From Actinomycetes bacterium (GTDB lineage Bacteria; Actinomycetota; Acidimicrobiia; Acidimicrobiales; Ilumatobacteraceae): 64,000 bases of DNA. Under the pieces are notes generated by a model that made no database searches, was not told where the DNA came from, and was given only the letters and a program-made list of their open reading frames with translations. A program made the position numbers and the translations under genes. Below are positions 45,210 to 64,000 of the stretch, piece by piece. The stretch covers positions 1 through 64,000 of the forward strand of contig BJGC01000003.1 of NCBI GenBank assembly GCA_014190235.1. The letters run 5' to 3'. The first letter of the stretch is position 1, and each line of letters starts with the position of its first letter.

Positions 45210-45586
45210 TTGACGAACTCTTTGAATGCAGCAAAGGCACGTGGTCCGTAAACGGTGGCGGGGCCACCATTCATTAAAATTGTGACGCCAATTACTTCTG
45301 CAACTTCTTGTTCGGTAGCACCAGCGATTGCTGCACCGCGTGCGTGCGAGGCGATGCATCCATCGCAGTGGCTACTGATGCCGATCGCCAATGCAATCAA
45401 CTCCTTTGTTTTTTTAGACAATGCCCCCTCAGCGAGCGCTGCTGTGTGCAAGCCACCAAAGCCGTCGTAGACGGTAGGTATCAGCGCGCGGAGTTCGCGG
45501 CCCATCGGGGCGAGTTCGGCGAGAACACCTCGACCAGGACTAGCGGCGGACGGGGCATGGACGTGATCTGGAGTCTGTTCGGTCAT
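45206..45586 (-). CDS. AhpD-like / carboxymuconolactone decarboxylase-family protein
   Basis: The 126-residue protein has the redox motif C74-D-G-C77 followed by His81 (HCDGCIASHARGA), typical of AhpD-like proteins that reduce peroxides or peroxiredoxins, as well as of related decarboxylases. It overlaps the serine hydrolase gene by 4 bp. The upstream intergenic region holds a DnaA-box pair. Confidence 0.85.
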   Translation of the reverse strand: MTEQTPDHVHAPSAASPGRGVLAELAPMGRELRALIPTVYDGFGGLHTAALAEGALSKKTKELIALAIGISSHCDGCIASHARGAAIAGATEQEVAEVIGVTILMNGGPATVYGPRAFAAFKEFVK

Positions 45587-59834: not shown

Positions 59835-60920
59835 ATGAAGACAATGAAGACACTAGTGATCTCGGCAGTCGCAGTTCTCGGTCTGCTGGCCACAACACAG
59901 GTTGCCAATGCATCTTCGCATGTAAAGGCGACAAAAAAGCAAACCGTCAAGTTCAGCGTGACTGGCGATTGCAAAGACGAAGAAGAAATGATCGAGGGTG
60001 AGTCGAAAGACGATTGCAAGATTGTTGTGAAAATTTCACCGACAACCCCAACTCGATCTGCAATTCTAGAACAGCTCAATGATGATGATGAGTGGGATGA
60101 AGTTTCTACTGCAAAGTCAAAGTCTGGCAAGATTACGTTTTCGATTGATGCAACAGACGAAGACGATGCCTGGCTCGATGGCGACTTCACCTTTCGGGTC
60201 ACTGTAAAAAAATCTGGCACCAATAAGGCAGTTGAGTCTGACGAATACACGTTTACTTTCACCCCTGCTGAATCAACAGACGAAGATTCTGATTCTAGTT
60301 CTGGCTCCGGAAGTGCGAAGCAGAAGGGCAAGTCAACCGGTAATACAAAACTAGATTCCGTTCTTGACAAAATGGACGACAAGAACACCACATTTGACGA
60401 CAATTGCGAGAAGTCATTTGGGGCAGATTGCAAATTGATGTTTACAACAACTGGGCCAAACTGGGCCAAACTGTCTGCTGCAAAATGGCAACCAATGTGT
60501 GAGAAGTTGCTCAAGCAAACTGCGGCTAATTGCAAGTTGATGTATGGCGCAACAGCCCCACCTCCTGGCTCAAACAATCAGCCAAGTTCGGGTGGCTCAA
60601 ACAATCAGCCAAGTTCGGGTGGCTCAAACAATCAGCCAAGTTCGGGTGGCTCAAACAATCAGCCAAGTTCGGGTGGCTCAAACATAAAAATTACGGAAGC
60701 AGACATCAAAAAGGCATGTACTGCTGCAGGGATTACGAATTGTGACTCCGTCATCAAATTGTTGTTGGGTCCCACACCGCCGAGCCAGGCAGACATGACC
60801 AAGTTACTCGGAAGCAAGATGGACGCATTTTTCAAGGCGATGCCTCAACAGCCAAGTTCGGGTGGCTCAAACAATCAGCCAAGTTCGGGTGGCTCAAGCA
60901 ACACTCAACCAATAAAGTAG
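59835..60920 (+). CDS. Secreted Cys-containing protein with Ser-Gly-Asn-Gln-Pro repeats
   Basis: The 361-residue protein has a signal peptide (cleavage likely after Ala26), an acidic beta-rich domain (about 30-150), a Ser/Gly linker, a small Cys-containing helical domain (about 170-235), then SSGGSNNQP repeats, a second Cys-containing helical segment (ITEADIKKACTAAGIT) and more repeats. No family is recognised. The strong ribosome site and promoter suggest high expression. It is likely to be exported; the repeats may be a wall-spanning linker. Confidence 0.75.
   Translation: MKTMKTLVISAVAVLGLLATTQVANASSHVKATKKQTVKFSVTGDCKDEEEMIEGESKDDCKIVVKISPTTPTRSAILEQLNDDDEWDEVSTAKSKSGKITFSIDATDEDDAWLDGDFTFRVTVKKSGTNKAVESDEYTFTFTPAESTDEDSDSSSGSGSAKQKGKSTGNTKLDSVLDKMDDKNTTFDDNCEKSFGADCKLMFTTTGPNWAKLSAAKWQPMCEKLLKQTAANCKLMYGATAPPPGSNNQPSSGGSNNQPSSGGSNNQPSSGGSNNQPSSGGSNIKITEADIKKACTAAGITNCDSVIKLLLGPTPPSQADMTKLLGSKMDAFFKAMPQQPSSGGSNNQPSSGGSSNTQPIK
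60567..60674 (+). repeat. Four exact 27-bp tandem repeats
   Basis: The unit GGCTCAAACAATCAGCCAAG plus TTCGGGT occurs four times without a mismatch (60567, 60594, 60621, 60648) and again around 60850-60890. It encodes GSNNQPSSG. Exact identity points to recent slippage or recombination and probable copy-number variation. Confidence 0.9.
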
Positions 60921-61824: not shown

Positions 61825-62874
61825 ATGATTAACACGCCACGAACTATGGATGAGTTGTCGACACAATGGCTCTCAGACGCGTTATCCGCAAAGGTCACTG
61901 AGTTCTCTGTGCAAATCATTGGCGCAGGGCAGGGATTTATGGGACAACTAGGTCGCGTTCAACTCAGTGGGGTCGGCGCACCAAAGAGTGTGATTGTCAA
62001 ACTCCCAACGGCAGACCCCGGCGGCCAAGTGATGGGACAGATGATGCGTGTGTGGGAACGCGAACATCGTTTTTATACCGAAGTTGCTCCACGAATGGGA
62101 GATGTTCGACTAGCAAAGTGTTTGTACTCAACGGCCGAGCCGTATGCGCTGATTCTCGAAGACCTTGCGCCGGCGGAGTCGGGAGATCAAGTGGCTGGTC
62201 CTACCCCAGATCAAGCACGTCGCGTGATTGATGCTGCTGCAATTCTGCATAGCTCATGGTTTGATCATCCAGATTTAGCACTTCTAGATTGGATGCCCGA
62301 CATCTCCGATCCGATGACGGCGACAATCGGTTCTTTGTTTGATGTGGGCTGGCCCACTTTTCTGGAGAGATACGAGTCTTCGTTGCCCACTCGTGTCTTG
62401 CGGTGGTGTGAGACGTTCGCTCCAATGATCGAGAGTTGGATCCAGACCTACAGTAATTGGCCCTGCACACTGACGCATGGTGATTTCAGGTTGGACAATA
62501 TGTTTTTTGGAGATGACGGAACGCTCACGCTCATCGACTGGCAGTTGTCGATGCGTGCTCCCTGCACCACTGATCTTGTGTATTTCATCGGAACGAACTT
62601 GCCACGGGAGATGCGCCGAACAATGCAAGATGAGTTGATAGATCGCTATGTCGCGGGTTTGCTGGCTGGTGGTGTGTCGGCTGAATGGGCAAATAAAGAA
62701 AAAATATTTCAAGGGCTCGCTGAAGGAGTGCTATTTTTCTGCACATCTTTTGGTGCAAGTATTTTGTCGCTTGACCCCGCGAACGAGCGTGGTGCCGCGC
62801 TCATGGACTCGCTTGTTCGTAGAGCATTTGCCGCGGCAGACGATTTAGATGCCGGAACGCGAATTGGTCTCTAA
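61825..62874 (+). CDS. Phosphotransferase-fold protein (APH/choline-kinase-like)
   Basis: The protein of about 349 residues has the catalytic motif THGDFRLDN and the metal-binding IDWQLS that replaces DFG, the pattern of aminoglycoside-phosphotransferase-like small-molecule kinases. A related group is found next to acyl-CoA dehydrogenase genes. The ATG at 61825 lies 9 bp after a GGGGGG tract; an ATG at 61816 is also possible. It overlaps the convergent selenoprotein gene by 4 bp. Confidence 0.87.
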   Translation: MINTPRTMDELSTQWLSDALSAKVTEFSVQIIGAGQGFMGQLGRVQLSGVGAPKSVIVKLPTADPGGQVMGQMMRVWEREHRFYTEVAPRMGDVRLAKCLYSTAEPYALILEDLAPAESGDQVAGPTPDQARRVIDAAAILHSSWFDHPDLALLDWMPDISDPMTATIGSLFDVGWPTFLERYESSLPTRVLRWCETFAPMIESWIQTYSNWPCTLTHGDFRLDNMFFGDDGTLTLIDWQLSMRAPCTTDLVYFIGTNLPREMRRTMQDELIDRYVAGLLAGGVSAEWANKEKIFQGLAEGVLFFCTSFGASILSLDPANERGAALMDSLVRRAFAAADDLDAGTRIGL

Positions 62875-63407
62875 GACTCTTGGTCGGTGATACAAGCCAG
62901 AATTTCGGCAAAATATTTGTCAGCCAGTGACTGCATTTCTTCGTTTGTACGGTCTTGAATTGGGTGCGTTGTGAACACCCGTTTTATGTCGGGAAACCCT
63001 AATGCAAGAGATTGAGAGGTTGCCGCCGTCACAAACTCAGCCGAAGCGACAAACATTGACGGAATGCCACGAAGTTCAAGATCTGCAATGTCGTGCACAC
63101 TGCACGACGTACAACTGCCTCAATCAGCGAGAGCCTCAATAACGAGATTACAATTCATCGCTATCTCGTGGCGCATGTCGACTGGAGCAGGCTTTGTAAA
63201 GGTTGGTTTAGAAAAGCGCAACACTTTTGCTCCGCGGCCGATCAGTAATTCTTCAACTCGATCAAGAAACACGTTGCCCCGCGGTTTAGAGATGTCGAGC
63301 AATCCAACAGTGAGTCCTGCAACATCTCGGGGGCGCGACAACAGTTGACGTGTGGCAGGAACCGACTCGTTCGTAGGATCAAGAATAATAAGGCCAGCAG
63401 AAGTCAT
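62871..63407 (-). CDS. UGSC-motif selenoprotein with in-frame UGA (Sec96)
   Basis: One continuous frame of 178 residues runs through a TGA at 63120-63122. The residues around it read LAD-U-GSCTSCSVHD, so Sec96 starts a U-G-S-C motif followed by two more Cys. The UGSC proteins are a family in which this position is selenocysteine, cysteine or threonine. Downstream of the UGA, codons remain fully conserved in pattern (DIADLELRGIPSMFVASAEF), which would be unlikely after a real stop. A perfect hairpin starts 12 bases after the UGA. The family is thought to be redox or thiol-linked. The upstream partner gene lies 14 bp away. Confidence 0.78.
63090..63108 (-). promoter_or_regulatory. Candidate bacterial SECIS hairpin
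   Basis: On the mRNA, GUCGUGC (63108-63102) pairs perfectly with GCACGAC (63096-63090) around the loop AGUGU. The loop lies 19-23 bases after the UGA, within the 16-37 base range known for bacterial selenocysteine insertion elements. It overlaps codons for SCSVHD. Confidence 0.6.
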
Positions 63408-63421
63408 CGCCTATAAGTATG

Positions 63422-64000
63422 TCACGACCCGACGACGCGAGTCACAGGATCACTGCCAATGGCACTGTTTGCCCACCCAGCAACGATGGACGAAAAGAGC
63501 CCCGCCCCGCCCCCGGCGAATGTGAGCAAGATTCCGCCAGGTCTGAATTTGGGAAGTGTGGCGTCACGCAGATGCGGAGGAATACCTTCTGCGATTCCGC
63601 TGGCGCCACGAACAAGTTGTTCGCCGGGTGTGTGTGAACGCTCAATGAGTTGAGTGATTAACTGTTCACGAGTCCAGCCCTCTTGTGCAAAAAGTCGGCC
63701 ATGATCTGGGCTAATAATCAAAATAGCATCGAACCCGATCACGAGTTTTGGGTGGTGTACGGTTTGCAAACATGCAACAAGTGAATTGGTGAGTTCGTCT
63801 GCTGTGCGGGCAAGTTGGTCGACAACACAACGCGGCCCTTCGCCTGCAAAGACAGTAACTGCGTTTTGTCCAAGCGCAATGCCACGTTCTGTGGCGAGCG
63901 ATGTGAATGGCGAGCCAAGTTCATCTTCTGCAAAACAAAAAGAGATTTTTCCGGGGTTGCCGTGCGTAGCGCGGTCTACTTCTCCGGGGCGACCACCACC
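63422..64000 (-). CDS. Partner of the UGSC protein, partial at the window edge
   Basis: The frame is open from the right edge to the stop at 63422, at least 192 residues with no start in the window. It contains GKISFCFAEDELGSPF, ISPDHGRLFAQEGWTREQL and a Gly-rich end (GGILLTFAGGGAGLFSS). It lies 14 bp before the selenoprotein gene and should be co-transcribed. The function is not known; a joint redox or hydrolytic step with the UGSC protein is inference. A TTG at 63769 is an internal frame position, not a likely start. Confidence 0.65.
   Translation of the reverse strand, partial: GGGRPGEVDRATHGNPGKISFCFAEDELGSPFTSLATERGIALGQNAVTVFAGEGPRCVVDQLARTADELTNSLVACLQTVHHPKLVIGFDAILIISPDHGRLFAQEGWTREQLITQLIERSHTPGEQLVRGASGIAEGIPPHLRDATLPKFRPGGILLTFAGGGAGLFSSIVAGWANSAIGSDPVTRVVGS

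Follow-up and report, generated by a model that had tools for sequence, protein, structure and literature searches.

A UGSC-family selenoprotein gene with a probable selenocysteine UGA and a nearly constant partner gene in a genome of Ilumatobacteraceae

A selenoprotein family containing the motif UGSC was described from ocean metagenomes in the GOS survey of 2008, which counted 255 of its selenoproteins (PMC2398784), and a survey of 2021 assigned 8.2% of selenoprotein genes to it. It is one of the most abundant families of selenoproteins in aquatic metagenomes. A thioredoxin-like fold was suggested for the family in 2008, and a fusion of UGSC to a domain called ‘Unknown_1’ is mentioned in the same survey (PMC2398784). 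According to a 2026 review, the functions of families such as UGSC are largely uncharacterised.

The gene analyzed here belongs to this known and common family. Compared with the 2008 description (PMC2398784), nothing essential differs: there is a profile score above the curated cut-offs (NF041046, PF24696), a U-x-x-C motif, Sec forms with rarer Cys homologues, and an occurrence in aquatic bacteria. What is less known is a nearly constant, unnamed partner gene, and the fold predicted here looks alpha/beta and not like the thioredoxin-like one suggested in 2008. By description only, ‘Unknown_1’ can be compared with the partner: it is a conserved domain of aquatic origin that is fused to UGSC in one protein (PMC2398784), and the partner is linked to UGSC genetically. 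Within the accessible text of open-licence papers, a literature search found no paper about the partner and none combining ‘selenoprotein’ and ‘Ilumatobacter’, and the pairing of UGSC with the partner was met nowhere except in the 2008 fusion to ‘Unknown_1’, which is possibly the same thing. Taken as a whole, the best explanation (probability about 0.9) is that the gene encodes a UGSC selenoprotein, decoded by SelB under the guidance of a hairpin, that works with the protein encoded directly upstream.

The stretch of DNA that was analyzed (the window) comprises 64,000 nucleotides, positions 1 to 64,000 of contig BJGC01000003.1, from a genome of 2.02 Mb in 55 contigs that is 96% complete. The relevant features of the window and of the same contig past its end are as follows.

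62871..63407, minus strand: gene for a selenoprotein of the UGSC family, with 178 codons between the start of ATG 63405-63407 and the stop TAG 62871-62873
63120..63122, minus strand: in-frame TGA, probable Sec, residue 96 (U-G-S-C), with TGA at the same site in 91/92 rows
63090..63108, minus strand: SECIS-like hairpin with 7-bp arms (63102-63108, 63090-63096) around loop 63097-63101
63422..64000, continuing to contig position 64864, minus strand: partner gene, 480 aa, ending 14 bases before the UGSC start, own stop TGA
From 64888, plus strand: tRNA-Sec, on the same contig as UGSC, past the window end
Beyond tRNA-Sec on the same contig, minus strand: selB and selA
Ending at 69027 on the same contig, plus strand: selD

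Two apparent open frames, one of 95 aa (63120-63407) and one of 75 aa when counted from a GTG (62871-63098), share one reading frame and are a single intact gene of the UGSC family, as the preliminary description of this DNA had proposed. Their joined product has 178 residues, with U at position 96 and, as counted before, 82 codons beyond it. Its score against the NF041046 profile (UGSC family (seleno)protein) is 154.2 bits with a cut-off of 125, whereas the separate halves, at 60.1 and 55.7 bits, both fall below that cut-off. With PF24696, whose cut-off is 25 bits, the joined product reaches 145.8 and the halves reach 49.9 and 55.5, so that both halves are recognisably UGSC individually. The TGA at 63120-63122 is followed by GGC AGT TGT, which reproduces the U-G-S-C motif pointed out earlier; U96-G-S-C99 is of the U/C-G-S-C type of Sec/Cys motif that membership requires. 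Judged from record titles, and with isolate names used for part of the habitat assignment, the closest relatives that bear a name are largely from fresh water and not from the sea, and belong to Ilumatobacteraceae and other Acidimicrobiia or Actinomycetota. A UGSC protein 66% identical to this one occurs in L174, titled Ilumatobacter nonamiensis YM16-303. Note that an annotation treating all UGA codons as stops would cut this protein in two in this genome.

Conservation was assessed over 92 rows (loci L020-L110), which include the gene itself and some loci that overlap the same place. TGA is present at the Sec site in 91 of these rows, the exception being L088, which has Cys. Due to this retention of TGA, a sequencing error at the codon is very unlikely. 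Among 200 genomes sampled from the family Ilumatobacteraceae, 141 have a UGSC match (131 above the cut-off), and one internal TGA is found in all but one of the matches listed. Occurrence in the phylum sample is patchy (28 of 396 genomes, 20 above the cut-off), mostly with TGA and in some cases with no internal stop. Among these 28, G217 (E 8e-4) and G330 (E 9e-5) are weak partial matches. When 55 rows were aligned with C substituted for U, the columns without variation were P11, U96 (Cys in L088), G97, C99, D106, F125, H148 and P149. The expectation that Sec, Cys or Thr would occupy position 96 was borne out in part: Sec (TGA) predominates and a few rows have Cys (TGC/TGT), with Thr in none of the rows examined.

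A search of the genome returned exactly one match above cut-off each for selA (396.3 bits), selB (249.4 bits), selD (323.4 bits) and tRNA-Sec (63.6 bits), the last with the anticodon TCA (a UCA tRNA-Sec). The selenocysteine genes for which a search had been recommended were thus each found once and on the same contig, and the partner, UGSC, selA, selB, selD and tRNA-Sec all lie inside about 6 kb. Across the 200 genomes of the family sample, a selA match is present in 151; UGSC and selA occur together in 131, UGSC only in 10, selA only in 20 and neither in 39 (Fisher p 1.2e-17, kinship ignored). Eight of the 10 genomes (among 141) that have UGSC without a selA match are less than 90% complete, and the other two, G006 and G193, are at 90 and 92%. 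Separately, three genomes of the window's genus (G070, G166 and G197) have no UGSC, selA or partner match, as if the three had been lost together; counter to joint loss, G104 has selA alone and G136 has selA with a partial partner match.

Bacterial SECIS elements are hairpins located just 3′ of the UGA, with the loop about 16-37 bases away and a G early in the loop. A 7-bp hairpin (GTCGTGC-AGTGT-GCACGAC) was found at 63090-63108 as previously described, with its loop occupying bases +19 to +23 past the UGA. On folding, the stem gains one A-U pair and reaches 8 bp, which leaves a loop of three bases, GUG, that starts 20 bases past the UGA, a geometry that fits the bacterial rule. Folding of the mRNA upheld the hairpin itself, but by energy it stands out only moderately: an equally good fold is reached by 14 of 200 dinucleotide shuffles, and its rank in a synonymous null is 0.010. 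For the homologues as well, energy relative to synonymous recoding gave a weak signal (mean z -1.18, with 16 of 87 segments ranking at ≤0.05). The energy-only test was set aside on these figures and replaced by pair conservation with a synonymous null.

For pair conservation we used 87 distinct segments, after dropping identical ones and L088 (no TGA). The 7-bp stem is complete in 78 of the 87, compared with a mean of 3.8 and a maximum of 11 in 1000 draws from the synonymous null, and 593 of 609 stem cells are paired. Compensating changes are seen in which Ser TCG->TCA occurs together with His CAC->CAT, and in which Cys TGC->Trp TGG is paired with Val GTG->GTC. All seven pairs are also made by 10 of 14 further TGA homologues (one makes just 3), while six TGC/TGT (Cys) homologues make 1 to 5 of the 7. 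In fixed register, the contrast between 101 Sec rows and 6 Cys rows has p 3.9e-9, with kinship ignored and L217 left out as its U codon could not be located; with the stem free to lie anywhere the contrast is weak (p 0.025), one Cys homologue having a 10-bp stem elsewhere. Three divergent TGA segments (TSGTVRDG type) make only 4 of the 7 pairs, so these paralogues must rely on another structure or on none. The case for the hairpin, as read from these alignments, rests on conservation and covariation and not on folding energy.

Given the joined profile match, the sel machinery, the conservation of both TGA and hairpin, and the contrast with the Cys homologues, we strongly infer that the UGA at 63120-63122 is decoded as selenocysteine, and the read-through put forward in the preliminary description is supported to that extent. 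A miscalled base in a single assembly, or a nonsense mutation, would appear as just such a mid-frame TGA; a pseudogene or an error of this kind is nevertheless extremely improbable when the same-site TGA recurs in all rows but one, the protein is strongly conserved on either side of it, and selA, selB, selD and tRNA-Sec adjoin. A program-made list of open reading frames gives exactly the two frames expected if translation simply ended at the UGA and a separate gene began at the GTG at 63096-63098. We consider this very improbable, since the family profile spans the UGA, the invariant G97 and C99 would go untranslated, and a fixed-register hairpin accompanies the UGA homologues. If UGA stood for an amino acid such as Trp or Gly throughout the genome, the open frame would look identical locally, but the probability of this is close to negligible: TGA serves as an ordinary stop within this operon, at the end of the partner gene 14 bases before the UGSC start, the tRNA with the TCA anticodon is tRNA-Sec, and homologues without TGA have Cys at the site and not Trp or Gly.

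Selenocysteine decoding being the reading we retain, a further alternative concerns the partner, which might be a chance neighbor carried along with the selenium genes. This would agree with the arrangement in the window's genus, where selA, selB, partner and UGSC form a single cluster wherever contigs are long enough. It is unlikely, however, because UGSC and partner stay side by side in most of the other genera sampled, without selA or selB in the stretch, because divergent paralogues retain the UGSC-partner pair with the order either way, and because presence agrees in 27/28 and 27/29 genomes of the phylum sample. In that sample of 396 genomes, UGSC is found in 28, the partner domain in 29 and both in 27, the exceptions being G217 (UGSC only) and G375 and G540 (partner only). 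The family sample of 200 genomes gave 141 with UGSC, 145 with the partner and 136 with both; all five of the 141 that lack a partner match (G060, G106, G154, G161 and G192) are less than 90% complete, and 9 of the 145 have the partner without a UGSC match. At the level of single loci, the partner adjoins UGSC in 86 of 92 rows, 81 times upstream and 5 times downstream. Five of the remaining six rows lie ≤402 bases from a contig end; the sixth, L027, has 1428 bases of room with no partner there, and its partner is found elsewhere on the same contig. In a second set of 21 loci (L201-L220 plus L088, which is in both sets), the partner was found in 20; the exception, L205, has UGSC but no partner within the sequence examined. 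Joint function of UGSC and the partner is thus the reading we prefer over chance adjacency, and with a near-constant partner the orphan UGSC family becomes testable, with a handle on its function. As a separate observation, contig C272 of G375 carries five partner-domain matches in a genome with no UGSC match, a possible solo or split form.

Residues 1-101 of the partner are thioredoxin-like and contain the motif C20-A-T-C23. In the structural model, this N-terminal part matches thioredoxins along 79-101 residues (Z 8.5-9.2; rmsd 2.2-3.7), which gives a thioredoxin fold (from the model) with CxxC (from the sequence). The partner differs from thioredoxin in that its sequence lies far below the family cut-off (16 bits, E 0.01, against the TIGR01068 equivalog with a cut-off of 96.8) and in that this part is fused to a domain without a model. 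A profile search with the partner gave no Pfam match with E under 0.1, and a sequence search of solved structures gave thioredoxins only; 51 aligned homologues have scattered weak family matches, most often to thioredoxin models. Residues from about 130 to 480 form a conserved domain for which neither Pfam nor NCBIfam has a model, and in which Cys212, Cys310, Asp161, Lys306 and Glu313 are invariant. A fold search with the model returned no convincing match for this C-terminal part. Foldseek listed a class I fumarase (7xky_A, E 8e-4), but with a query TM of 0.23 and an rmsd of 14.8. In the alpha domain of class I fumarases, three Cys ligate an iron-sulfur cluster; in the partner, C212 and C310 are the only Cys at invariant positions. 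Distant paralogues (26-37% identity) keep the C-terminal domain, which can still be recognised between paralogues at 32-37% identity, and have no thioredoxin part.

The predicted structure of the UGSC protein (pLDDT 94.8) alternates strictly between strands and helices, with five of each. Sec96 opens helix 97-112, following strand 88-94; the N-terminus of a helix is a usual place for a reactive selenol or thiol, and the modeled layout appears suited to a selenol redox center. The 50 fold matches listed for the model (Z 8.9-11.7) have titles that are mostly those of receiver, Rossmann-like, flavin or cobalamin proteins. No thioredoxin-titled entry is among these 50, an absence that excludes no family, and a sequence search of solved structures with UGSC gave no match.

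In the mechanism that we propose, SelB and Sec-tRNA(Sec) would decode codon 96, a UGA, under the direction of the hairpin, from which 11 bases separate it, with SelA and SelD supplying Sec-tRNA and selenophosphate. UGSC would be an alpha/beta protein in which the pair Sec96-x-x-Cys99 serves as the redox center: Sec96 would attack the substrate, and Cys99 would resolve the product to form a selenenyl-sulfide. The CxxC thioredoxin-like domain of the partner would most likely re-reduce this selenenyl-sulfide, and its C-terminal domain most likely binds, holds or activates the substrate. The reductant role cannot be general, since the partners of divergent paralogues are without the thioredoxin-like domain. 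Judging from the sequences, we give a UGSC-partner complex and this redox cycle roughly even odds. A broader proposal, for and against which we see the balance as equal, is that UGSC is not a stand-alone thioredoxin-type protein but the small alpha/beta selenol subunit of an undescribed two-protein selenoenzyme. The larger subunit would carry the unnamed domain, a built-in thioredoxin-like domain would recharge the enzyme in one branch, and paralogues would have been recruited to different catabolic gene sets.

When neighborhoods were compared across loci, with example loci inspected by eye, no widely shared neighbor besides the partner and the sel genes indicated a substrate. Inspected in the same way, the divergent pairs at L076, L089, L102, L105 and L106 lie near amidase-, CoA-transferase-, enoyl-CoA hydratase- and amidohydrolase-like genes. 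Such neighbors of divergent paralogues offer hints of catabolic substrates.

The idea that UGSC is the sole selenoprotein of the genome was rejected. Searches were tried with PF02627, PF00578 and PF10262, and the PF00578 search found a second one.

L221 1554-2645, contig C11 of the window's genome: second selenoprotein, NF041054 (WAxxUGC_long), 542.5 bits with a cut-off of 300, TGA at 1890 and a predicted hairpin after it

This WAxxUGC_long ResA-like selenoprotein resembles UGSC in having U beside G-C and a hairpin after the UGA in the same genome. It differs in its Thioredoxin/ResA-type profile matches, with no UGSC profile match listed, and in its location elsewhere in the genome. Within the window, a CMD (AhpD-like) family gene at 45245-45478 (minus strand) has no in-frame stop; AhpD-like proteins are selenoproteins in other organisms, according to the 2008 survey (PMC2398784). 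The protein encoded at 59835-60920 looks secreted and carries nine-residue repeats in tandem, of the SNNQPSSGG type. Finally, the records of L114, L121, L163 and L189, titled Bifidobacterium breve or Ferrithrix thermotolerans, look mislabelled; they correspond to the UGSC contigs of G115, G185, G117 and G040, which are placed in Ilumatobacteraceae.
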